DNA from: Magnetospirillum sp.
GTDB taxonomy: Bacteria > Pseudomonadota > Alphaproteobacteria > CACIAM-22H2
Direction of reading: 5' to 3'
Assembly: GCA_027532905.1 (NCBI GenBank)
Contig: JAPZUA010000004.1
Coordinates: forward strand, 432,570-496,569
DNA length: 64,000 nt
Shown here: in pieces, positions 8,553-21,823 of the stretch
How the letters are laid out: each line of letters begins with the position of its first letter
Numbering within the stretch: the first letter of the stretch is position 1
The notes under the pieces: model-generated
Told to the model about the DNA's origin: nothing
The model's input: only the letters and a program-made list of their open reading frames with translations
Databases searched by the model: none
Made by a program: the position numbers and the translations under genes

Positions 8553-8936
8553 ATGCTTTTTCGACTGCTGCCGCTGCTGATGCTTATGAACTTTGCCCCT
8601 GCCTTTTCACAGCCGGTCAAGAATTGCCACGCTATCGATGGCGATACAATCGTATGTTCGCGAGAGACCATTCGGATCGAAAACATCGACGCGGCCGAGA
8701 TGCCGCCGCATGCTCGGTGCGCCCACGAGGCCGATCTAGCAATCAGGGCAAAACTTTTCATCGTCGATCGCCTGGCGCGCGGCCGTATAGAGCTCGTGCG
8801 GGACCAGAAACGCCCCAGGGACCGCTATGGCCGTACGCTGGCGCTTGTGAAGGTGGATGGCGTTGATCTGGGCGAGGCGCTCATCCAGGCCGGCCTGGCA
8901 AGGCCTTGGGAGGGGAAGCGGCGAGCGTGGTGTTGA
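8553..8936 (+). CDS. Secreted thermonuclease-like (SNase) protein
   Basis: 127 residues. Residues 1-19 form a signal peptide ending AFS. The rest is a compact staphylococcal-nuclease domain: DGDTIVC near 28-34 and IRIENIDAAEMP carry the acidic metal-site residues. DRYGRTLALV supplies the usual Arg-containing strand, and GEALIQAGLARPW closes the fold. The Ca-dependent 5'-phosphodiesterase would act outside the cytoplasm. A partial second copy lies 830 bp downstream (9770-10045), with the HNH gene between them. Confidence 0.85.
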   Translation: MLFRLLPLLMLMNFAPAFSQPVKNCHAIDGDTIVCSRETIRIENIDAAEMPPHARCAHEADLAIRAKLFIVDRLARGRIELVRDQKRPRDRYGRTLALVKVDGVDLGEALIQAGLARPWEGKRRAWC

Positions 8937-8946
8937 GGTTAGCGCA

Positions 8947-9570
8947 CTATTTCAACTCTTCAAGCCCATTCCAGCTCGTTTTCTTGACGGCGCGCTCGCG
9001 CGGATCGGCGAGTCCGAGCTCTGTCAGCGTGTAGTTCATTCTGCCGAAATTGCAGGGCGCGCAGGTAATGACGAGGTTCTCGAATCTATTGTCCCCGCCG
9101 CGCGCATGCGGCAACACGTGGTCGAACTGCAGCCACATCGCCTGGAACGCAGCGTGCTGGGTTGGGTTGGTCCGCCCCCAGGGAACAGCTTCTGGATATA
9201 GTTTTGCAGCGCGCTTGCGAACGCGCGGATGGATGAGCGGTATCTCGCAAAACGCGCACTGGTATCCGTAATGCGCGATTAGGCGTTTTTGGTCGCCGCT
9301 CGGCGGCATTCGACGCTTTATGCGGTCGGCTTTCGCAAGGTGCGGCGGCGAATCTGGAACGTCCCGCTTACAAAGAATTTCCGGCCTGTGCTTGCCCCAG
9401 ATGCTCTCTGTCCATTCTCGTACGGTCGTCATGTTGGCGTCGGCGAAGAGACGCGCCGCTGTTGTTTTATCTTTGCGGAGATGTGCCTCAGCGGCGGATT
9501 TTAAGAGACGTGCTGCCTCCAAGATTTGAGGAACTGGAATGCGCAGGCAGGGACGACTGATTGAGGTCAT
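8947..9570 (-). CDS. HNH endonuclease
   Basis: 207 residues. The C-terminal half is an HNH/treble-clef nuclease: first knuckle CAFCEIP, catalytic segment LQFDHVLPHARGGDN, then FENLVITCAPCN with the second Cys pair. The N-terminal 90 residues are helical and charged and may bind DNA. Metal-dependent nicking or cutting of DNA is expected. It sits between the two thermonuclease copies and points away from them. Such solitary HNH enzymes occur as homing or restriction-type nucleases in phage and islands. Confidence 0.85.
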   Translation of the reverse strand: MTSISRPCLRIPVPQILEAARLLKSAAEAHLRKDKTTAARLFADANMTTVREWTESIWGKHRPEILCKRDVPDSPPHLAKADRIKRRMPPSGDQKRLIAHYGYQCAFCEIPLIHPRVRKRAAKLYPEAVPWGRTNPTQHAAFQAMWLQFDHVLPHARGGDNRFENLVITCAPCNFGRMNYTLTELGLADPRERAVKKTSWNGLEELK

Positions 9571-9769: not shown

Positions 9770-10045
9770 ATGCGCCGACGGCGTATTGAAAATATCGACG
9801 CTGCCGAAATGCCATCACATTCGAAGTGCGCGCTCGAGGCCGACCTGGCAATCAAGGCGAAGCTGTTTGTCGTTGATCGCCTGACTCGCGGCCGCGTGGA
9901 GCTTGTGCGCGATCAGAAACGCCCCAGGGATCAGTATGGGCGAACGTTGGCACTCGTTCGGGTCGATGGCGTGGATCTAGGCGAGGCACTTGTGGCGGCC
10001 GGTCTGGCGCGACTGTGGGAGGGTAAGCGGCGACCGTGGCGTTGA
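9770..10045 (+). pseudogene. N-truncated thermonuclease-like paralogue
   Basis: 91 residues closely matching residues 41 onward of the nuclease at 8553-8936 (shared RIENIDAAEMP, ALEADLAIKAKLF, RDQKRPRDQYGRTLALV). It has no signal peptide and no DGDTI strand, which carries a metal-binding Asp. An in-frame TGA lies five codons before ATG 9770, so it cannot be extended. The region 9571-9769 before it holds no convincing gene. It is either a decayed duplicate or a donor for recombination with the intact copy; nuclease activity is unlikely. Confidence 0.7.
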
Positions 10046-10238: not shown

Positions 10239-10466
10239 ATGGCTGATGAAGAAAAGCCGCAGGAAACACCTGATGCCTTCCTTGCCGCTCTCGGAAATAG
10301 TCTAAAGGAAAAAGAAGGCGTTGATGCCGATCTAGCGGCTGTTCTTGTCGCGAACATTCTAAAAGCTGCTCCAGCACAAAACGCCGTGGCCCAAGCGAAG
10401 GACGCCATTGTAAAGCTCGCCACCGCGCGGGCGAACTCGCCGAAGGTTGGGGTTGTCGATGGCTGA
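10239..10466 (+). CDS. 75-aa partner of the SMC-like ATPase
   Basis: 75 residues, acidic N-terminus (MADEEKPQETPD) followed by Ala-rich amphipathic helices. The start has an AAGGGG site 10 bp upstream, and the stop lies 8 bp inside the ATPase gene, a coupled arrangement. No family recognised. Its size and coupling suggest a small subunit or regulator of the downstream ATPase. The 193 bp before it (10046-10238) should contain the promoter. Confidence 0.7.
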   Translation: MADEEKPQETPDAFLAALGNSLKEKEGVDADLAAVLVANILKAAPAQNAVAQAKDAIVKLATARANSPKVGVVDG

Positions 10467-12978
10467 TCCGTTTTTTTTACAGTCGTTGAGTCTGACTGGG
10501 TTCCGGGCTTACCTCCAGCCGAAGACCTTCGATTTCAGCAAAAAGCGATGTCTTGCTATCTTCGCGCCAAATGGCAGCGGTAAATCGAGCTTCATTGATG
10601 CGCTTGAGTTCATACTTTCCAAAGATGGAACGCTTGAAAAACTAGGGCAGCGCGCGGTTAACAATCAAGCCGGTCCGAATGCCCTTGCGCATAATCTTGC
10701 CGAGAAAGCAAAGATCACACCGACCGTGGCGATCAGCGTAGTTTCAGGTAAGAAGGTCTCGAGCGGTAGTCGCCCTGCAGCAGGTACGAAACGTCCGATT
10801 CCTGATGTTGCAACTACGATCAATGCTTGTTTTGCGGTTCCGCCCATTATTCGCGGTCATTCTCTCCGTTCTTTTGTAGAAGAACATACGCCGGAGCAGC
10901 GTTACACGGATGTCGCAAATTGGTTGCAACTTGGCCCGCTGGTAGAAGTACAAAAGAACCTAAGGCTGCTTCGCACGCAGATTAAGTCTGAGGCCGAAGA
11001 TAAGACGGAGTTCAGGCGCATCGATGTCCAGCTTGCCAAGGAGACCAACCAGGCGATTAAAACTTGGGACGCAGCCGCAGTTGTTTCCCATATCAATACG
11101 GCGATTCTTGCGCCACTTGACTCGGCTCTAGTCCTCACATCCTTTGATGTATCTAATCCAGCCTATATCGAACTAGAGGCGCGCGCCAAAGCGGAGGAGA
11201 ACAAGGTTGGGCTCGCCGGCCTGCGGCAAATCCGAAACGCGGCTGCCGACTTGTGGCTGGCTAAAACTGACAGCGATAGCGGTGAAACAGTCGTCAGTGG
11301 CGCAGTTCCGAGCTTCGATACCGCCGTCGCGACACTCACTGCTGCTGAAGTCAAGGAAGGCGAAGAGCGTGACAAAGCAGCCGGGACCGTGTTTCAGGCT
11401 CTGTGGAAAGCCGCTGAGCCGCTTTTTGCCGAGGACGCGCCGATATTAGATGCCTGTCCGGTTTGTACAACACCGATTGCGAATACGGAGGCCGGCAGCG
11501 CAGAAGCGATTCGCAACCACGTTGCAAAACACCTTGAGCAGCTAGCCGATTATGCAACTGCCAAGAAGGCGCGCGACGATGCTAAGATTCTGGCACTAAA
11601 GGCCCATACACAAGTAGTGGCGTCGCTTCGTGGGTTGATTGGTTTGCTTGGAGATGTGGATGCGCCGCTCAGAACCGAATTGGTTGCGTATCAGTCAGGC
11701 ATCGTCGGTTGGCCGAAAAACGCTGCGTTAGCCTCGATCGAAATCGCAGCCTCGATCTCCAAGCTACTGATAGCTGTCGATAAAGAGATTTCCGACATTG
11801 AGGCTAAACAAGGGGATCACACCTATATCAGGGCCAAAGCACAGGTCGATCGTCTAAGGGAGCTGGAGGGCGAACGGAATCTCGCGCTGCAGATAAGCAA
11901 GGAAATGGGGAAGTTGTCTGATGCGCTCATGGCGCAAACGACAACGATCTCGGCGGAGATCCGAAAGAAAGTGCAGGCACTGCTTGAAAAACTTCAGAAG
12001 CCAATGAATGACATATACAAGATCATTCAGGGCGCGGATGCCAAGCCGATCCGGCTTGAGCTTCCGGGAGAAGAGGATGGAAATCAGCAGCGCCTCAATC
12101 TGCTGATTGATTTTGCTGCGAATCGGACCGGTGTACAGCCGGGCGGCTATTTAAGCGACTCCCAGATCCATTCAGTGGCGTTGGCGCTGCGTATGGCGGC
12201 GATCAAGCAGTTCAACGCGAATGCGCCCATCATCGCGCTCGACGACATTGTCACCTCTTACGATGCCGATCATCGCCGCAACATTTCTGGGCTGATTGCC
12301 ACTATGTTCGGCGACTGCCAAGTTCTAATCACTACCCATGACGAGAGATTCTTTCTCTACTTGAAGGATCAACTTGAAGATAAGGCCTGGCATTTCACCC
12401 GTATTATCGGCACCGACCCAGCCGGGCCGAGATTCGCAGATCATAAGGTGAGTGACGCGATGATCGAGGCTCGTTGGGAGTCCGGGCAGTCGGCGGCCAA
12501 CGAGATGCGCCAAGCCGAAGAGGAATGGTTACTCTGCATTTGCCGCGATTTTGGCGTTAGTGTTCAAATCCGACCACTGGAGAAGGCCTATTCGTACGAG
12601 CGTAGTGAGTTGGCATCAGCGCTGGGCGGTTTCCTCAAGAAAGCTAAGCTGGAACCAGCCTTGGTGCCGAGTGTCGCCAATCGCTTCCTCTCAAGCCTTG
12701 CAACCGGCGTCATTGAAAACTTTGGGAGTCATTTTCAGGACGTGCCTTATGGCAGCGGCTCGATCGGCGATGAAAAGGCACGCTGGGAAGAGTTCAAGAC
12801 CTTCCGAAGCCAGTTCATCTGTAAGAAATGTAATCGCACAAGGTTCCAAAGACCACTCACGCTTAAGAAGCCGGTATGCGCACATGACGGGTGTGAGACC
12901 CAATTTGAGTTCGGAGCTGTGGAGCGGCATAATGGTAAAGCGATCAAGGCCCCTCGAGTTGGCGACGCAGACCTTTGA
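10459..12978 (+). CDS. Rad50/SMC-like ATPase with zinc hook and C-terminal zinc ribbon
   Basis: 839 residues from ATG 10459. It has Walker A APNGSGKSS at 36-44 after an AAA/RecF-type start (LSLTGFRAY). A coiled-coil middle carries CPVC at 333-336, positioned like the Rad50 zinc hook. The ABC signature LSDSQ is at 565-569, Walker B ALDDIV around Asp595-596, and the switch His627 is in TTHDERF. The C-terminus adds a likely zinc ribbon (Cys788, 791, 807, 812). This is a complete ABC-type head, so ATP-driven dimerisation on DNA is expected. Many such ATPases power anti-phage systems. Here it forms a two-gene unit with a 75-aa protein, next to a type I restriction operon. The exact system is not recognised. 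Confidence 0.85.
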   Translation: MADPFFLQSLSLTGFRAYLQPKTFDFSKKRCLAIFAPNGSGKSSFIDALEFILSKDGTLEKLGQRAVNNQAGPNALAHNLAEKAKITPTVAISVVSGKKVSSGSRPAAGTKRPIPDVATTINACFAVPPIIRGHSLRSFVEEHTPEQRYTDVANWLQLGPLVEVQKNLRLLRTQIKSEAEDKTEFRRIDVQLAKETNQAIKTWDAAAVVSHINTAILAPLDSALVLTSFDVSNPAYIELEARAKAEENKVGLAGLRQIRNAAADLWLAKTDSDSGETVVSGAVPSFDTAVATLTAAEVKEGEERDKAAGTVFQALWKAAEPLFAEDAPILDACPVCTTPIANTEAGSAEAIRNHVAKHLEQLADYATAKKARDDAKILALKAHTQVVASLRGLIGLLGDVDAPLRTELVAYQSGIVGWPKNAALASIEIAASISKLLIAVDKEISDIEAKQGDHTYIRAKAQVDRLRELEGERNLALQISKEMGKLSDALMAQTTTISAEIRKKVQALLEKLQKPMNDIYKIIQGADAKPIRLELPGEEDGNQQRLNLLIDFAANRTGVQPGGYLSDSQIHSVALALRMAAIKQFNANAPIIALDDIVTSYDADHRRNISGLIATMFGDCQVLITTHDERFFLYLKDQLEDKAWHFTRIIGTDPAGPRFADHKVSDAMIEARWESGQSAANEMRQAEEEWLLCICRDFGVSVQIRPLEKAYSYERSELASALGGFLKKAKLEPALVPSVANRFLSSLATGVIENFGSHFQDVPYGSGSIGDEKARWEEFKTFRSQFICKKCNRTRFQRPLTLKKPVCAHDGCETQFEFGAVERHNGKAIKAPRVGDADL

Positions 12979-12991
12979 AACGCAAGGCGAT

Positions 12992-13156
12992 TGAACCATC
13001 CCGGGATCGCCTGAGGCTATTTGGCTTAAGTCACGCCGCCCGCTTCTACTCGCTGAGCATAGCGTAGAAACTTGCCTCGGCTTCCGCCGGCGGGATATTG
13101 CCGATAGGCTCCAGTAGCCAACGATTGTTGAACCAGTCTACCCAAGTCATCGTCGC
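12992..13156 (-). mobile_element. IS3-family insertion sequence remnant (3' end)
   Basis: On the minus strand, 13046-13150 encodes 34 residues typical of the C-terminus of IS3-family OrfB transposase (WVDWFNNRWLLEPIG, PPAEAEASFYAMLSE), ending in TAG. The sequence at 12992-13022 (TGAACCATCCCGGGATCGCC) resembles an IS3-type terminal inverted repeat and lies 14 bp after the ATPase stop. Everything upstream of the last 35 codons is missing, so the copy is dead. It marks a past insertion between the ATPase unit and the restriction operon. Confidence 0.75.
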
Positions 13157-13263
13157 AATCCTGGGGCGGTTCGATTTTTGGACGACGTTGTTTAGGCAAA
13201 GCTCAGCTTAACCATGCTGCCCCGAGATACATATCCTCAGCGGTTGACGGCTTCATTTACTTT

Positions 13264-13335: not shown

Positions 13336-16300
13336 TTAATAGTACTCTTTGACATAGGCATATGCCCTCTCAAACAGATCCGCTTCCTGATGAAGCTTGT
13401 AGCGAAAGAGTGTCTGCCGTAGCGCCTTCTTTACCTCGCGCTCGCCAGCGTGTGTCGCCTGCCAACCATCGAAGCGCACCGCGCGCACAATCTCGTCGAT
13501 ATCATCGACGGCCCGTTTGACCATTACCGGCGTGTCGCCGTTCCGCGCCTCCTCGAACAGTGCGGTCAGTGCCGCCTTGCCGCGATCGATATCCTCTTCT
13601 TCGGGAGTTTCGCGCTCGGTCCTCACGACGTCCTTTGCCAGAGCCAGAAGCTCCTTCAAGAAGTCGATCGAAAGGAGCAGACCCTGCTGGTGCCGATTCC
13701 TGAGGTCCTCCAGGCGTTCGCCAAGCGCTTTGAATTTCGGATTGCCTGCGTGTTTCCGTAAGCGGCCCGCCAGCTTTATCGAGATTTCCTTGCCCTTCTT
13801 TTCGGGATCGGGATTTTCGAGCACAGCTTCCAGCAGTCCGGCATCGAGGACCAGCGTGTCGAGATCGTCGCGCACGGCATCAACACGGACGTTGGCGTGG
13901 ATCAACTCTATGGTCTTGGCGCCAAGGCGATGCCAGAGGAGCCGACCTGTGCCGCTAGACGGTTTCAGTGATTCGTAGACCTGTGCCAGCCAGCGAAAGT
14001 CAGACTCAAACTGGGTAAGCACCGGATCGGGCGACAACGCCTCCCAAATCCGCGCCAGGACGCCAAAGTCGGCAGCGAACGCGTCGCGCAGGTCGTTGTT
14101 CGGGATGCACTCCTGCGCGGCGATCAGGCCCTCGTATCCGGTCAGGCTGCGATCCACGCCAGCGAAATAGGCGAGGCACTTTTGTAAGGCTGTAGGGAGT
14201 GCGTTGATCAACTCGGCGATGTTCGACACCGCCTTCTGCACACCTTCCTCGTCGAACTTCAGCGCCTGCGCCACGTCGTCGAAGATGCCGAGGTAGTCGA
14301 CGATCAGACCATGCGTCTTCTGCTCGCCATACGGACGGTTAGTGCGGCAGATTGCCTGCAGCAGCGTGTGATCGCGCAGCGGCTTGTCCAGGTACATCGT
14401 CTGCAAGATCGGCGCGTCGAAGCCGGTCAACAGCTTCGACGTCACTATGATGATCTTGAGTGGGTCCTTCGGATCGCGGAAACGGTCTAATAGCTTTTCC
14501 TCGGCATCCCGATCACGCTTAAAGGGCGCGTATTGCGGCTCGCCGCTGTTGACCGAGATCACAACGTCTGAGACCTCGGGCGGCAGGTGCCGGTCGAGTT
14601 CCTGCTTGTAGAGCAGGCAGCTTTCGCGGTCGAAGGTCACCACCTGCGCGCCGAAACCGTTCGGGGCGACCTTCTCCTGGAAATGCTTGGCGATATCGCC
14701 ACAGATCGCACGGATGCGCTCGGGCGCTTTCACCAGGATCGACATCTTCGCAGCAGCCTTGCCCAGCCGATCTTTGTCCTCGTCTGTCAGGCCCTGCGTC
14801 AACTCGGCGTATGCTTCCTCGATGGCCTTCTGGTCGATGTGCAGGTCTACCAGTCGCGGCTCGAAATGCAGCTCTTTTGTTGCGCCGTCGCGAATCGAGT
14901 CGTTGAGCCCATAGCGGCTCATGTAGCCGCCCTCGTCAGTCTCGGCGCCGAAAGCGTAGAAGGTGTTCTTGTCGGCCCGGTTGATCGGCGTACCGGTTAG
15001 ACCGAACAGAAACGCGTTCGGAAGCGCTTCGCGCATTCTGCGGCCGAGATCGCCTTCTTGCGTTCGGTGCGCCTCATCGACCAGGACGATGATGTTGTCG
15101 CGGTCATTCAGCACGCCATCGGCTTCGGCGAATTTGTGAATCGTGGTGATCACCACCTTGCGCGCATCCTTAGCCAGCAGATCGGCCAGGTCCTTGCGTT
15201 TTTCGGTGCGCACCATGTTGGGCATGTCGGCGGCATAGAAGGTGCCGGAGATTTGGCTATCGAGGTCGATTCGGTCGACCACCACCAGCACAGTGGGGTT
15301 CTTCAGCGCCGGATGTAGCCTTAGCTTGCGCGCGGCGAACAGCATCAAGAGCGACTTGCCCGAACCCTGGAAATGCCAGATCAGCCCTTTGCGCGGCTGT
15401 CCCGCCACCACCCGCGAGACGATCTTGTTGACGCCGTCCACCTGCTGATAGCGCGCGATTACCTTGATGCGGAGCTTGCCCTTCTGCGTCGCGAACGCGG
15501 TGAAGCTTCCGAGCATGTCGAGAACCATCGCCGGTCGCAGCATCGAGGTGGCGGCCTTTTCCACCGCGCCCAGCGATTGCGCTCCGTCGCCCTCTCGCCA
15601 GGGGCCCCAAAGGTCGACCGGCATCCGAACCGAGCCATAGCGGAACTCCTTTCCCTCGGTCGCCACCGAAAAGACGTTGGGCACGAACAGTTCCGGCACG
15701 TTTCGTTCGTAGTTGTCATGCACCTGCAAGGCGGCGTCGAGCCAGCTCTGGCTTGACCGCACCGGCGTCTTTGCCTCGATCAGGACAAGAGGAATGCCGT
15801 TGACGAGAAGAACCAGATCGGCGCGCTTTTCGGTCTTGCCCGCCCGGATAGTGAACTGCTGGGTGACGATGAAACTGTTCTTCTCGATATCGTCAAAATC
15901 GATCAATCGGATGGTGACGTGCTCGCCATTTGCGCCGAGCGGCATTGAGCGCTCGCCCAAGGCCCACGCAGAAAATTCCTCGTTCGCCTTAACCAGACCG
16001 TCCGACCGCGCGCCCATGACGATGGCGCGCAGGCGGTAGAGCACGTCATCGGCCCGGCCTGGGGTGGCAGCAATATCGGGGTTCAGGCGGATCAGTGCAT
16101 CACGAAGATGGGCTTCGACGAGTACCTCTTGCGACTGCCGGGGCAGGTCGACGGGGGAGATATAGTGCCAGCCGAGGCCCGCAATCCTGCCACCCGCGCG
16201 GGCCAAGCCAGGCGAAAACTCTCGAGGACGTGAAATCGATGGACCAGCCAGGATATCGCGCAGATGCGCTTCAACGGTGTTCCCTTCATTGAAGCTGGCT

Positions 16301-16878
16301 ATACGACGGGCGCGTTCGTCTTGGAATGATGCGCTTTCCACGCCAGGTTCAATCCCAGCCACTTTGATGGGTCCCAACAGGGCTTGCAGTTTGAATTGAG
16401 TTTCCACCGAATGCAGCAATCTGTCGGCTCCATCAGCCGGAACCGAAACAGTCAGAAGAATGCTGCCCTGCTTTACGGACACGATAAGCACGTCCTTCGG
16501 CGAGGCGTCGATAACCGCCGCGATCGCTGCGAGCACTCGATTCCTCTCTTGTTCGAAGTTATCCTTGGTCGTATCGAGCTCAAGAGTTACCAACGTTTTT
16601 GGTCCGAAATCGGCCGAGACGCCTTTATAGCGAGCCACCCACGGCTTTTTCTTATACTTCTTGAGCGTCTTTGCATCCCACTTTTGATCATGTGAAAGCT
16701 TATGGCAAAGGCTGCAAAGCACGACCAGATTCTCGAATGAATGGTCTTTAGTCTCCGACCACGGGATGATATGCGCTTTCTCTAGCGAAACAGTTTCGCC
16801 GCATGCACAACACCGATGCCCGCACTCAATCATCAGGTTGCGCTGTGTTTCCGCAGGGATTAACGGGCGGGTCGGCAT
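13336..16878 (-). CDS. hsdR: Type I restriction subunit HsdR with N-terminal HNH fusion
   Basis: 1180 residues from ATG 16878, chosen for its TGATG overlap with the preceding small gene (GTG 16881 is the alternative). Residues 19-63 form an HNH nuclease (CCACG, KAHIIPWSE, SFENLVVLCSLCHKL). Residues 93-175 form a small alpha/beta domain (VKQGSILLTVSVP). The normal HsdR N-terminus begins near 193 (ASFNEGNTVEAHLRD). It is followed by the PD-(D/E)xK nuclease (RADLVLLVN, LIEAK at 367-370), Walker A FQGSGKS around 503-509, DEAH at 601-604 and LTGTP at 627-631. The motor translocates DNA and cuts unmodified targets with HsdM and HsdS. A second nuclease at the N-terminus is unusual and makes the protein about 190 residues longer than normal. 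Confidence 0.95.
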   Translation of the reverse strand: MPTRPLIPAETQRNLMIECGHRCCACGETVSLEKAHIIPWSETKDHSFENLVVLCSLCHKLSHDQKWDAKTLKKYKKKPWVARYKGVSADFGPKTLVTLELDTTKDNFEQERNRVLAAIAAVIDASPKDVLIVSVKQGSILLTVSVPADGADRLLHSVETQFKLQALLGPIKVAGIEPGVESASFQDERARRIASFNEGNTVEAHLRDILAGPSISRPREFSPGLARAGGRIAGLGWHYISPVDLPRQSQEVLVEAHLRDALIRLNPDIAATPGRADDVLYRLRAIVMGARSDGLVKANEEFSAWALGERSMPLGANGEHVTIRLIDFDDIEKNSFIVTQQFTIRAGKTEKRADLVLLVNGIPLVLIEAKTPVRSSQSWLDAALQVHDNYERNVPELFVPNVFSVATEGKEFRYGSVRMPVDLWGPWREGDGAQSLGAVEKAATSMLRPAMVLDMLGSFTAFATQKGKLRIKVIARYQQVDGVNKIVSRVVAGQPRKGLIWHFQGSGKSLLMLFAARKLRLHPALKNPTVLVVVDRIDLDSQISGTFYAADMPNMVRTEKRKDLADLLAKDARKVVITTIHKFAEADGVLNDRDNIIVLVDEAHRTQEGDLGRRMREALPNAFLFGLTGTPINRADKNTFYAFGAETDEGGYMSRYGLNDSIRDGATKELHFEPRLVDLHIDQKAIEEAYAELTQGLTDEDKDRLGKAAAKMSILVKAPERIRAICGDIAKHFQEKVAPNGFGAQVVTFDRESCLLYKQELDRHLPPEVSDVVISVNSGEPQYAPFKRDRDAEEKLLDRFRDPKDPLKIIIVTSKLLTGFDAPILQTMYLDKPLRDHTLLQAICRTNRPYGEQKTHGLIVDYLGIFDDVAQALKFDEEGVQKAVSNIAELINALPTALQKCLAYFAGVDRSLTGYEGLIAAQECIPNNDLRDAFAADFGVLARIWEALSPDPVLTQFESDFRWLAQVYESLKPSSGTGRLLWHRLGAKTIELIHANVRVDAVRDDLDTLVLDAGLLEAVLENPDPEKKGKEISIKLAGRLRKHAGNPKFKALGERLEDLRNRHQQGLLLSIDFLKELLALAKDVVRTERETPEEEDIDRGKAALTALFEEARNGDTPVMVKRAVDDIDEIVRAVRFDGWQATHAGEREVKKALRQTLFRYKLHQEADLFERAYAYVKEYY

Positions 16879-17021
16879 CACACTTGCTCTCTGAGATCGG
16901 AGTACTCGCCATCGATGACAACGTCGGCGCTAAGTCGCGCAGAATTGACCAGGGGCGCGCCCGCGAGAAGGTCGCGCAGATGGACTTCGACGGTGTTGGC
17001 GCCATTGAACTTCATACCCAT
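16878..17021 (-). CDS. 47-aa peptide related to the HsdR N-terminal motif
   Basis: A short frame between hsdS and hsdR, joined to both by TGATG stop-start overlaps (17019-17023 and 16876-16880). That strongly suggests it is translated. Its residues 5-20 (NGANTVEVHLRDLLAG) repeat HsdR residues 197-212 (NEGNTVEAHLRDILAG), and the DNA also matches at roughly three quarters of the bases by eye. The C-terminal half is unrelated to HsdR. It is either the stub of the original hsdR start, left when the HNH module was inserted, or a small separate subunit that mimics the HsdR docking segment. Confidence 0.6.
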   Translation of the reverse strand: MGMKFNGANTVEVHLRDLLAGAPLVNSARLSADVVIDGEYSDLREQV

Positions 17022-18178
17022 CACGCATCGAACACTTTCGCTGAAATCTTCTGGTAGAAGCATTGGAAGCTATCTCGCCGTCTTTCTGCCGCTACGCGCT
17101 GGTTTTCGAGCACGGCAATCTCCGCGACGATTTCCTTCTGTTCGTCGATGCGCGGTACCCAAATGGGGAAATCAGATACTAGCTTCGTATTCAAAGCATG
17201 CTGATTGGTTCCGTGGCTCCAATGGCGTAGCGGCTCGTAGCAGGATTCAAGCTGATAGAAGAGGAACTCGGGAACGATGCCCTCACTAGGCGATACCGCC
17301 GCAAAGTTCTGATTGGTGGTGGCGTCGATCCTGAGCAGCGCCGCCTTACCGCGTGTTGTTCCTTCGCCGATCATGGCCACGAGTGTCGAACCTGCCGGGA
17401 TCAGCCGAAGTGAGCATTTTCTCAGAGCGAGTTCAGTTATGCACTCAGTAGCCGCTTCGATGTAACGTTCATTGACCTTTCCTGTCGGCAGCCACGGAAC
17501 GTTTCCGTTCCAGAAGTCTGGGTTCTCACGACTGGGTGTTGTGCCGTTTCGAACGGTTGCGACCTCCCCAATGCGCGTTCGCGCAATCTCTTTTCTCTTC
17601 TCAATGAACAGTGTCTTGCAGAACGAACGCATCGCTAACGCAGCAGAGTCGGCGACAGTACCGAGTCCATCACGGACCTCATTTGCTGCCATCAGTGCTC
17701 CCACCATCCGCGCCTGCTCCTGGATTGGTGGTAGTAGGAACTCGAACGTTGCCAGACTGGTCCAGTTGGTGCGCGGCGACAGCGACCCGGCCGAGGTACC
17801 GACGGCATGATCGAAGAAGGCATCGGTCTGACACAGAAACGGCAGCAATTCGGGCATCAGCCGATCAATCGCCGGTTCCAGCACATAGATGTCGCCGGAA
17901 CAAACCCCTTCGAAATCCGCCACCGCCACCTTGCGCTGATAGGCACGGCGCTTGCCGAACAGAACCTGTCCCGGCTTGAACAACGTGGTGAAGGTAGTGC
18001 CATCGGCCACGTCACCCCAGCGCCGGATGCGCAAGTCTCCGGGTTCGATATGCTCCAGCCCCACCACACGTTCGATCCCGGCGGCCTCCGGATCGGCCAC
18101 ACGCACTTTCGACAGGCGTACCACGTCGCCAAAGGCCACGCGTGTCGACCCCGCCTTGGAAATCGGCCGCTCAAGCAT
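17021..18178 (-). CDS. hsdS: Type I specificity subunit HsdS
   Basis: 385 residues. The start ATG lies 8 bp inside the end of hsdM. Two target-recognition domains are seen: the first about 10-150 (RVAFGDVVRLSKVRV to SPRTNWTSLATFEFLLPP) and the second about 200-345 (IGEVATVRNGTTPSR to FPIWVPRIDEQ). Each is followed by a helical conserved region (QARMVGAL, QKEIVAEI). It reads the two halves of a split target site and positions HsdM and HsdR. Sharing two different HsdM proteins in the operon with this single HsdS is unusual. Confidence 0.95.
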   Translation of the reverse strand: MLERPISKAGSTRVAFGDVVRLSKVRVADPEAAGIERVVGLEHIEPGDLRIRRWGDVADGTTFTTLFKPGQVLFGKRRAYQRKVAVADFEGVCSGDIYVLEPAIDRLMPELLPFLCQTDAFFDHAVGTSAGSLSPRTNWTSLATFEFLLPPIQEQARMVGALMAANEVRDGLGTVADSAALAMRSFCKTLFIEKRKEIARTRIGEVATVRNGTTPSRENPDFWNGNVPWLPTGKVNERYIEAATECITELALRKCSLRLIPAGSTLVAMIGEGTTRGKAALLRIDATTNQNFAAVSPSEGIVPEFLFYQLESCYEPLRHWSHGTNQHALNTKLVSDFPIWVPRIDEQKEIVAEIAVLENQRVAAERRRDSFQCFYQKISAKVFDA

Positions 18179-19694
18179 CGGAATCCTCCGAAGGCGCAAG
18201 GCCATCGAGCATGTCCACCAGCGCGTCCATGCCCGTCCAGAACTCGCGCCCTTCCTCATCAAACGCCGCCCAGGTCGCCGCCAGCGTGGTACCCCCACCT
18301 GCCACCGCAGCCTTGAGCCGCTTCACATAGCGGGCAATCGACAGATTGCCGTCAGCCGCCAGCACATCGGTCGCCTCCGCCACCGCGGCAAAGCCGGGAT
18401 CATCGGCAAAGGCCTGATAGGCCGACAGGATGCGCATTTGATGGTCCGGGCGCAGTAAGCTTTGCGCCCGTTCGCGCGCAATCTCGGCCACCGCATCGAT
18501 GAACAGGATACGGCCCTTGCGCGCCGCCGGTTTCCGCGACCTGCAGATTACCACGCAGGCCTCCATCGGTGAGTTGTAGAACAGCCCCGGCCCCAGCCCC
18601 AGTACGCATTCGACCCGGTCGGATTCGATCAGCCTACGCCGCATCTCGGCCTCTTCGTTGCGGAACAGCACGCCATGTGGGAACAGGACCGCACAACGCC
18701 CGGTCTTCGGGTCCATCGACGACAGGATGTGCTGGAAGAACGCGTAATCCGCCCGCCCCTGCGGCGGAGTGCCGAGGAAGTTGCGGCCCCAGGCATCCTG
18801 CTCCCAAGCGCCCCGGTTCCATTTCTTGATAGAATAGGGTGGGTTGGCCAGGACCACGTCGAAAGTTCTTAGTCGATCGCCCTCCACGAAGGCGGGCGTT
18901 GCCAGCGTGTTGCCGCTGGCGATGTGGAAATCGTCCACGCCATGGATGACTAGGTTCATCCGCGCGATGGCAGCGGTGATGGTGATCAACTCCTGCCCAT
19001 AAAGACCGTTGGTGCGGATATCACCGCCGCGCCTCTTCACCTCGGCCAAGCATGAGATCAACATGCCACCGGTGCCGCAGGTCGGGTCATAGATGCTTTC
19101 GCCGGGCTGGGGCTCCAGCATCTGCGCCATCAGATGGACAAGTGTGCGGTTGGTGTAGAACTCCTGTGCAGTGTGACCGCTGTCGTCGGCGAATTTCTTG
19201 ATCAAGTATTCGTAGCCATTGCCGAGCTCATCCTCTGGCACGGCAGCAAGGGTCAGGTCGTGCTTGGAGAAATGCTCGATCAAATTCTTCAGCGTGCTGT
19301 CGGGCGTCTCGGCCTTATCGGTCCAGTTCGCATTACCGAAGACGCCCTGCAGGCGTTCTGGATTCGCCGACTCGATGGCGAGGAAGGCCGACAGCAGTGC
19401 GCGCCCCACATCGCGCGGCGCGACGCGGACATCTCTCCAGTGGGCGCCTTTGGGGATCACGAAGCGATCGTTGGCGGTGTCAGTGGCATAGCCCGCGTCC
19501 CCAGTTTCATCGAGGGCTTTTTGATAATCCTCGTCCCAAACGTCGGACAGGCGTTTAAAGAACATCAGCGGGAAGATGTATTGCTTGTAGTCGCTGGCAT
19601 CGATGAGGCCACGCAGCAGGGTCGCAGCGCCCCAGAGATAGCTTTCGAGTTCGCGTTGGCTAATCTGGCCCATACTTATTGGCTTTCCAGCCAT
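18171..19694 (-). CDS. hsdM: Type I adenine methyltransferase HsdM, copy adjacent to hsdS
   Basis: 507 residues. N-terminal helical domain (LRGLIDASDYKQYIFPLMFFKR), SAM-binding motif I YDPTCGTGGMLI and catalytic motif IV NPPYS are intact. It should methylate N6 of adenine in the HsdS-specified site. The start overlaps the 126-aa gene by 19 bp and the end overlaps hsdS by 8 bp. It is clearly homologous to the second HsdM upstream, yet differs at many positions (NPPY here, NPPF there), so it is not a recent tandem copy. Confidence 0.95.
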   Translation of the reverse strand: MAGKPISMGQISQRELESYLWGAATLLRGLIDASDYKQYIFPLMFFKRLSDVWDEDYQKALDETGDAGYATDTANDRFVIPKGAHWRDVRVAPRDVGRALLSAFLAIESANPERLQGVFGNANWTDKAETPDSTLKNLIEHFSKHDLTLAAVPEDELGNGYEYLIKKFADDSGHTAQEFYTNRTLVHLMAQMLEPQPGESIYDPTCGTGGMLISCLAEVKRRGGDIRTNGLYGQELITITAAIARMNLVIHGVDDFHIASGNTLATPAFVEGDRLRTFDVVLANPPYSIKKWNRGAWEQDAWGRNFLGTPPQGRADYAFFQHILSSMDPKTGRCAVLFPHGVLFRNEEAEMRRRLIESDRVECVLGLGPGLFYNSPMEACVVICRSRKPAARKGRILFIDAVAEIARERAQSLLRPDHQMRILSAYQAFADDPGFAAVAEATDVLAADGNLSIARYVKRLKAAVAGGGTTLAATWAAFDEEGREFWTGMDALVDMLDGLAPSEDSDA

Positions 19695-20056
19695 CGTTCA
19701 GCGGGGGCAAATAGATTCTGACCCTGTACATGGACCACATGTGTCCATTGCGTGCCGACGAGCGAGAAAATCACGATTGCCGAGCCGCTGTTGATGAAGT
19801 CCTCATCCAGCACGTAGTGCGCCTTCAAGCTACCCGGGCTGAAACCATCACCCCTTCGCTGCGGCCTGAAGGCAATCCTGTCAAACAGTTCTTTTTGCTG
19901 GTCCGAAAGAAGATCGGAAACGCTAGTCCAGCGGGTGTTCACGCCTGCCAGCTTGAAGACAAACGAAGTGTCATCGTTGTCGCAACATAGCTGGTCCAGG
20001 AACGCGGTGAGTTCCTTTCCTTCGACTGAAACAGAAACTGGTGTGGCGATGCTCAT
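19676..20056 (-). CDS. 126-aa unknown protein between the two hsdM genes
   Basis: 126 residues from ATG 20056, which makes an ATGA overlap with the stop of the upstream hsdM (an ATG nine bases earlier is also possible). The end overlaps the next hsdM by 19 bp. It has mixed alpha/beta composition, no Cys pair motif beyond QLCCDND, and no membrane segment; the C-terminal half has FSLVGTQWTHVVHVQG. No family recognised. Tight coupling in the restriction operon argues for a role in modification or control, such as inhibiting restriction or modulating one HsdM. Confidence 0.75.
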   Translation of the reverse strand: MSIATPVSVSVEGKELTAFLDQLCCDNDDTSFVFKLAGVNTRWTSVSDLLSDQQKELFDRIAFRPQRRGDGFSPGSLKAHYVLDEDFINSGSAIVIFSLVGTQWTHVVHVQGQNLFAPAERWLESQ

Positions 20057-21573
20057 TGCAGCCACCCCCCTTCGGTCAGCACCTTGCGCAGATAATCCTC
20101 GGCTGCCCGGGCATCGACGAGCGCAGTCTTGAACGCCTCTACGGCGTCGGGCAGCGGCGGGATATCCTCGCCGATGGGTGGCAGGACGTAGCGCGAAATA
20201 TTCAGCGTCCAGCCTTCCTTCTTGATCTCGTCAAGTGTTACGACCTTGGCGCGGTCCTCGGCATCCTCGAAGGCGCGGTGCCAAGCAACAATCTGGTCGC
20301 TGTGCTCCTGGTCGAGAAAGTTCTGCGCCCGGCCTTTCCGGAACAGGCTGGAAGCGTCGATGATCAGGACCTTATTCTTGCGGGCTGCGGGCTTCTTGCG
20401 GCGCAGTACCATCACACAGCCTGCCAGTTGCGTGCCGTAGAACAAGTTCGACGCTAGGCCGATGACCGACTCGACCATGTCCTTTTCGAGCAGAGCCTGC
20501 CGGATGGAGCCTTCGGCCGATTTCCGGAACAGCGCACCTTGAGGCAGGACGACCGCCATGCGGCTGTTCCCGGCGGGCGCCATCGACGCAATCATGTGCT
20601 GGACAAAGGCATAGTCGCCATAGCTCTCGGGCGGGATGCCGTACTGGGCGCGGCCCCAAGGGTCGGCCTCCCAAATATCGCGGCCCCATTCCTTGAGCGA
20701 GAACGGCGGATTCGCGATCACGCAGTCGAAGGTGGCTAGTCCGCCAGTGCTGGAATCCGTAAAGGCCGGATTGCGCAGCGTGTCCTCGCGCGCCACCTGG
20801 AAATCCTCAATCCCGTGCAGAACGAGGTTCATCCGCGCGATCGCAGCCGTGGTCAGGTTCTTCTCCTGACCATAAATCTTGCCGTAGAAGGTGCGTGGAT
20901 CACCGCCTTTGCGGACAACGTGCTCGATAGCCCCAAGCAGCATGCCGCCAGTTCCGCAAGCGGGATCGTAGATACTCTCGCTTTCCTTGGGGTCGAGGAT
21001 CTCGACCATCATGCGCACGACACTGCGCGGGGTGTAGAACTCACCCGCCTTGTTTCGGCGCGTGACGTCAGCAAACTTACCGACCAGATACTCGTACGCG
21101 TCACCGAGCACGTCCGTGCTGACCGTCGTGTTGCCCAGCCCGATCTCGGAGAACCCCTCAATCAGATCCTTCAGCAATTCGTCGGAGAACTTCTCCTTGT
21201 TGCCCCAGTCTGCCGAGCCGAAGACGCGGAAGAGCGTGTCCGGGTTGGCCCGCTCGATCTGCTGCATGGCCTTTTGCAGAGCGGCGCCGACGTTAGCGGG
21301 TGCCTCCCTGATGTCATTCCAGTGGCAGCCGTCCGGGAGCACGAAGCGATGCACCTCGGGAAAGAGTGACGAGTCCGCATCACCGAAAATCTCGCGAGCA
21401 GCAACGGTTTCTTCGTCCCAGACGTCGGAGATGCGCTTGAAGAACAGCAAAGGAAGGATGTAGCCCTTCCAATCTGTGCGATCGACTGCGGAACCGCGAA
21501 GAGTGTTCGCCGCGTCCCACATGGCTGACTTTAGCTGACGTCCTTGGTCTTCCGGTTCATTGGCCGTCGACAT
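20053..21573 (-). CDS. hsdM: Type I adenine methyltransferase HsdM, first gene of operon
   Basis: 506 residues from ATG 21573 (a TTG four codons earlier is less likely). Motif I YDPACGTGGML and motif IV NPPFS are intact, with the N-terminal helical domain (LRGSAVDRTDWKGYILPLL) and C-terminal RAAEDYLRKVL. It is a complete HsdM and the first well-supported gene of the minus-strand operon hsdM, 126-aa gene, hsdM, hsdS, 47-aa gene, hsdR. All junctions overlap. It may pair with the other HsdM as a heterodimer on one HsdS, or serve another HsdS elsewhere. Confidence 0.95.
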   Translation of the reverse strand: MSTANEPEDQGRQLKSAMWDAANTLRGSAVDRTDWKGYILPLLFFKRISDVWDEETVAAREIFGDADSSLFPEVHRFVLPDGCHWNDIREAPANVGAALQKAMQQIERANPDTLFRVFGSADWGNKEKFSDELLKDLIEGFSEIGLGNTTVSTDVLGDAYEYLVGKFADVTRRNKAGEFYTPRSVVRMMVEILDPKESESIYDPACGTGGMLLGAIEHVVRKGGDPRTFYGKIYGQEKNLTTAAIARMNLVLHGIEDFQVAREDTLRNPAFTDSSTGGLATFDCVIANPPFSLKEWGRDIWEADPWGRAQYGIPPESYGDYAFVQHMIASMAPAGNSRMAVVLPQGALFRKSAEGSIRQALLEKDMVESVIGLASNLFYGTQLAGCVMVLRRKKPAARKNKVLIIDASSLFRKGRAQNFLDQEHSDQIVAWHRAFEDAEDRAKVVTLDEIKKEGWTLNISRYVLPPIGEDIPPLPDAVEAFKTALVDARAAEDYLRKVLTEGGWLQ

Positions 21574-21823
21574 ACACACCGTCAATCATGCTTGGAGATA
21601 TGGGATCAACCATGGCGCGCCCAACTAGACGGGAGGCCGAAAGTTCATTCAAGGGACAGGGTGCCATGCTTTCTGAATGTATCGCATCCGATTCTTGCAA
21701 TAAGTTTGACCATACGGACCAAACCATTCCAGGCAAGGTGGCCGCCGAAGTATGCAGAGCCTCAACCTCGGTTTTTTGAGACACTGTTAAATCACGGAAA
21801 AAGTGTTCACAATATTTGTTCAC
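21557..21823 (-). CDS. Possible short ORF at the head of the hsd operon
   Basis: An 88-residue frame from a GTG start, overlapping the start of hsdM by 17 bp. The composition is plausible (LHTSAATLPGMVWSVWSNLLQ), but the ribosome site is weak, and it lies where the operon promoter is expected: TTGCCC and TATAGG 16 bp apart, minus strand, about 21836-21863. It could be a leader or remnant rather than a gene. No family recognised. Confidence 0.2.
   Translation of the reverse strand: MNKYCEHFFRDLTVSQKTEVEALHTSAATLPGMVWSVWSNLLQESDAIHSESMAPCPLNELSASRLVGRAMVDPISPSMIDGVYVDGQ

Follow-up and report, generated by a model that had tools for sequence, protein, structure and literature searches.

Does a small gene that overlaps a Rad50-like ATPase gene in a Magnetospirillum genome form a defence unit with it, and if so, where is the effector? 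In the window (the whole 64 000-nucleotide stretch of DNA analysed here) an initial annotation had placed two ORFs with an 8-bp overlap beside a type I restriction system, describing the first product as acidic and the second as having an ABC head, a CPVC hook and a C-terminal zinc ribbon. All of this is borne out. The first gene (10239-10466, plus strand) encodes a protein of 75 aa with a pI of 4.7, and the second (10459-12978, plus strand, ATG at 10459) encodes a Rad50/SMC-like ABC ATPase of 839 aa; the stop of one and the start of the other fall within the overlap ATGGCTGA (10459-10466, plus strand), which likely couples their translation. Promoter and terminator scans gave results at chance level only. 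The adjoining type I system, at 13336-21585, lies entirely on the minus strand and comprises HsdR with an N-terminal HNH (1181 aa, 13336-16881), HsdS (17021-18298) and two HsdM (18171-19694 and 20053-21585).

The ATPase head is marked by NGSGKSS (residues 38-44), LSDSQ (565-569), LDD (594-596) and THDE (626-629), and the protein matches Pfam SMC_N with 69 bits (cut-off 40) and AAA_23 with 42 bits (cut-off 27). The zinc hook CPVC (residues 333-336; 11455-11466, plus strand) is kept as CPxC in 50/50 homologues. The C-terminal ribbon consists of CKKC (788-791) and CAHDGC (807-812), that is, C788-x2-C791 and C807-x4-C812 (12820-12894, plus strand); three ribbon cysteines are kept in 49 of the 50 aligned ATPases.

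The two genes are a conserved unit. The small gene was nowhere missing beside homologues of the ATPase: a homologous small ORF lies just upstream in each of the 69 intact homologues for which upstream sequence exists, a set that reaches down to ~20% identity and spans at least four phyla. The overlap is exactly 8 bp in 48 of these 69, as in the window, and 4 bp in eight. Some ORF was also found in an equally loose upstream window at 164 of 315 random unrelated genes; since this happens by chance about half the time, the case for a true pairing is built on the constant spacing and on sequence homology. Alignment of the small proteins gave P 4e-15 within the main subfamily and P 2.5e-5 between two divergent subfamilies, and was weaker between the main and the divergent subfamilies (P 0.004). 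The small gene differs from its homologue at locus L008 at 12/12/28 first, second and third codon positions, so mostly at third positions, the pattern of a coding gene. Among the homologues, the small proteins have a median pI of 4.6 and a median length of 74 aa. Searches of Pfam, NCBIfam and PADLOC with the 75-aa protein gave no convincing match; a PDZ match (E 0.086) was taken as chance.

The likely effector was overlooked in the initial annotation. It is the tail of the ATPase, where the sequence indicates what is probably an RNA-cutting HEPN domain (residues about 660-788; 12436-12822, plus strand). In an alignment of 50 ATPases with identity as low as 18-23%, the sole invariant polar residues of this domain (50/50) are R684 (12508-12510), E688 (12520-12522) and H758 (12730-12732, all plus strand); N754 is kept in 49/50, D771 in 48/50 and S757, the serine before the histidine, in 43/50. 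The link is the R-x3-E...SH signature, which also connected RloC to PrrC; for RloC it reads R-x3-E-x36-52-H, often with Ser before His, and change of any triad residue abolishes the tRNase activity of RloC (PMC2610378). Nuclease domains of the RloC/PrrC type are HEPN domains, and proteins that fuse ABC and HEPN domains form an established class of defence proteins, often found near restriction operons (PMC3710099).

As a control we used 21 intact RloC-type proteins retrieved with Pfam AAA_13, in which R, E and H each occur in 20/21 at the corresponding places. The E-H spacing is 69 in the ATPase of the window, 63-83 across its family and 36-44 in this control set. With hhalign, the R-x3-E helix and N-x2-SH of the family tail come into register with the 21 RloC tails, if weakly (P 0.001-0.012, probability 3-19%), and the HMM-to-sequence comparison of the tails gave E 0.003 at best. 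The canonical HEPN catalytic motif is Rx4-6H. The family tail does not have it and shows N-x3-H instead (49/50); the N is also there in 12 of the 21 RloC proteins.

AlphaFold models of the tail were built from input rows with plasmid-derived sequences left out, and were compared by VIA-align, whose own note warns that Z <8 does not establish the fold of a helical domain: for residues 629-839 (pLDDT 83) the first three rows were HEPN toxins (Z 4.2-5.4), and for the trimmed domain 660-788 (pLDDT 75) HEPN proteins took all six top places among the PDB entries. These are 2jpu (Z 7.4) and 2q00 (7.1), which we take to be HEPN proteins, followed by 5yep (6.5), 1o3u (6.0), 6m6w (5.9) and 6m6u (5.8), which are annotated HEPN or known HEPN toxin pairs; the best non-HEPN entry came after a gap, at Z 4.2. 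Foldseek scores alone gave no significant match for the tail models, nor did BFVD, and a profile search of the PDB with the ATPase C-terminus found no relative. Because Foldseek was not significant and such modest Z values can arise by chance in helical bundles, we regard a HEPN fold of the tail as probable, not proven.

RloC had been set aside in the initial annotation as differing in partners or domains. A difference in domains is not supported: RloC also has a zinc hook, and since the RloC/PrrC triad is present in the tail, whose fold is probably HEPN, RloC is the nearest functional model. The two share Rad50-like heads, a CxxC zinc hook, the C-terminal R-x3-E...SH triad, a similar length (about 720-790 aa) and sporadic occurrence. 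They differ in that the family adds a zinc ribbon and keeps a small partner gene beside the ATPase gene, whereas no constant small gene was found at 24 RloC-type control loci, and in the E-H spacing (63-83 against the published 36-52). Our ATPase missed the cut-off of the RloC-type model AAA_13 (28.1 versus 36 bits, over residues 455-642 only), and in the tree, whose branches are long, the family forms its own clade (100/95) beside a separate RloC clade (100/99). Given this separate clade, the missed cut-off and the different E-H distance, we describe the family as working like RloC by its anatomy and do not file it as RloC.

We thus favour, as the more probable account, a unit of ABC ATPase and HEPN ribonuclease that works like RloC and has a co-translated small regulator. 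RloC is a wobble nucleotide-excising anticodon nuclease. Its nuclease is switched on by its own ATPase with linear DNA and is governed through the zinc hook (PMC3874168). For the present pair we infer RNase activity, a tRNA target, sensing of DNA ends, a regulatory role of the small protein and an anti-phage function, as follows. Two ATPase chains would be held together by their heads and by the CPVC zinc hook, and would use these parts to sense an invasion-related signal; the analogy of RloC and Rad50 points to DNA ends or abnormal replication structures as the probable signal. Binding or hydrolysis of ATP would then release the C-terminal HEPN-like domain. R684, E688 and H758 would cut RNA, most likely tRNA, so that translation stops and with it the spread of phage or plasmid, while the zinc ribbon beside the nuclease probably helps to bind substrate or partner. 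The 75-aa protein, whose translation precedes that of the ATPase and is coupled to it, would act as a regulator, in a role like that of the type I restriction complex for PrrC. Conserved in many distant bacteria, the pair looks like a self-limiting defence unit.

Judged by position, size and charge only, the small protein is most likely a stoichiometric regulator, either a silencer or a trigger sensor. RloC is thought to carry an internal switch and PrrC is silenced by the restriction enzyme; if our reading is true, a dedicated small protein that is always made just before the nuclease would be a third control arrangement for dangerous RNases, and the pair a small, easily tested unit. A possible objection is that the small protein, rather than silencing the nuclease, plays a structural or DNA-binding part in the ATPase complex, comparable to that of DndE, a kleisin or the middle component of Lamassu. 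This has an appreciable if lesser chance of being right: the genes are paired in 69/69 cases, and DndE pairs similarly with its ABC ATPase (PMC10853773), but acidity at a median pI of 4.6 is unusual for a DNA-binding subunit and the three database searches tied the small protein to no known family. The objection concerns the small protein only; what the RloC-like reading says of the nuclease can stand beside it.

A further objection is that the small protein and the ATPase are a sensor module that activates a separate third gene, as in Lamassu/ABC-3C, while the role of the HEPN-like domain is limited to binding RNA or protein. A third gene does lie closely behind the ATPase gene (-49 to +85 bp) in 21/71 loci (HamC in nine, HD-CE in six, Mrr-nSTAND3 in six), the window holds a HamC remnant, and LmuA effectors vary likewise (PMC10586767). 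However, 42 of the 71 loci lack a third gene in close linkage, and the invariance of R, E and H in 50/50 proteins suits catalysis better than binding, so that we consider the sensor module unlikely. Keeping the RloC-like nuclease as effector, we put forward more tentatively, at slightly less than even confidence, that these loci represent a widespread unnamed two-gene defence family in which a dedicated, co-translated small protein silences an RloC-like ATPase-HEPN tRNase or is its trigger sensor, with HamC, HD-CE/GHKL and Mrr-nSTAND3 as optional add-on effectors.

In related loci an intact DUF3223/HamC gene, named HamC2 by PADLOC (E 9e-55), lies directly 3' of the ATPase gene. The remnant in the window (12932-12994, plus strand; tblastn E about 5e-6 to 9e-6, ~65% identity) runs for 20 codons before a stop, and DNA similarity to locus L008 stops there. 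The third gene may have been removed by an insertion or deletion beside the remnant. HamC had so far been a component of Hachiman type II (PMC8565338), and the related loci connect it with a second unit. Directly beyond the broken HamC gene of the window, at 13026-13199 on the minus strand, the translation (NNRWLLEPIGNIPPAEAEASFYAMLSE) looks like the C-terminal end of an IS3-type transposase, apparently a remnant; Pfam gave no match for the ORF tried there. The HD-CE/GHKL-ATPase gene directly follows the pair in L013, L014, L019, L020, L025 and L045, and in L045 it is itself followed by HamC.

One genome scan yielded 74 homologue loci, in Proteobacteria, Chloroflexota, Planctomycetota, Cloacimonadota and candidate lineages. 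Plasmid homologues are 68-75% identical and distant ones ~23%, all with the small gene just upstream. Occurrence is sporadic (1/23 genomes of the order, 7/385 of the class), and the neighbours include restriction enzymes, AbiE, Septu PtuA, TniQ, T4SS genes and integrases; such mobile or defence surroundings agree with the defence-type location proposed in the initial annotation. No relatives were found in the phage collection; viral contigs gave three weak ones. This distribution bears on the reading of the ATPase as a RecF/SbcC-like DNA-repair or housekeeping protein without a conflict role. Its heads match SMC_N and RecF-type models and SbcD-like genes lie near 11 homologues, but those SbcD genes that were viewed are each accompanied by a separate SbcC, Rad50/SbcC has no such C-terminal domain (PMC2610378), and the family is rare, scattered, carried on plasmids and placed beside defence and mobility genes, which makes a repair role very improbable. 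SbcCD/Rad50-Mre11 was also considered for the window locus itself, where the genes scanned include no adjacent Mre11/SbcD gene. In eight members of one divergent branch (L005, L067, L069, L070, L072-L075) a GIY-YIG nuclease-like gene, on either strand, lies just upstream of the pair.

The pair had been said to match no named system, and indeed no curated Pfam, NCBIfam or PADLOC family names it. A literature search outside the ABC-ATPase catalogue of Krishnan et al. 2020, reportedly the main one for ABC ATPases in conflict systems, found no description of it. The ordinary-looking ATPase is thus one half of a conserved and apparently unnamed unit, probably of the ABC-HEPN kind. Several known systems share parts of its anatomy. 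PrrC, encoded with EcoprrI, has an ABC head and the C-terminal nuclease triad, and the pair here likewise adjoins a type I restriction system; PrrC lacks the zinc hook, however, where the family ATPase has CPxC. The PbeABCD/CxC ABC-ATPase systems combine a hooked ABC ATPase with a small protein that evolves fast and may be regulatory (PMC10853773), but their HKD-helicase nuclease and DndE gene were not seen at the pair. HepT-MntA and other HEPN toxins share the probable HEPN fold and control by a partner, yet these are standalone toxins, paired with a nucleotidyltransferase antitoxin, whereas the HEPN-like domain here is fused to an ATPase. Septu and PARIS were rejected, as the similarity to the PtuA and AriA models is confined to the P-loop region of the ATPase and no PtuB or AriB gene is coupled to it.

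Lamassu/ABC-3C (LmuB, LmuC, LmuA) also has a hooked SMC-like ATPase, a small accessory protein and an optional variable third gene, but the LmuB model ends at the head, without such a tail domain. That the pair is a compact Lamassu member (LmuB plus a short LmuC) is the least credible reading of all and was dropped: although LmuB is the best PADLOC match of the ATPase (E 3e-25, 87 bits), a control on the model proved it SMC-generic, as it also scores long SMC-type proteins at 1e-16 to 1e-24 and gives hits in 9/14 control genomes, and this low specificity explains the match, whose 87 bits are close to what ordinary SMC-type proteins reach, while clear LmuB proteins, one of them in the Magnetospirillum source genome, score 5e-77 to 1e-134 (260-450 bits), LmuB rows fall outside the family's clade in the tree and no LmuA gene is adjacent to the pair. 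The clear LmuB of the source genome (L128) lies elsewhere, on contig C2 at 1057095-1059050 (PADLOC E 1.5e-127).

The GC content is 53-62% in the first 22 kb of the window, against mostly 62-67% in most of the remainder, and a prephenate dehydratase gene at 22.7 kb suggests that the core chromosome starts near that point. Within the type I system, HsdR has two nuclease domains in one subunit, HNH at residues 24-66 (E 1e-7) and HSDR_N at 235-419. Its tandem HsdM genes are both complete and differ from each other, beside a single HsdS and a single HsdR. Upstream of the pair, two mutually similar SNase-like ORFs (8553-8936 and 9770-10045, plus strand) flank an HNH gene (8947-9570, minus strand); the second copy has no N-terminus and thus looks like a partial duplication.
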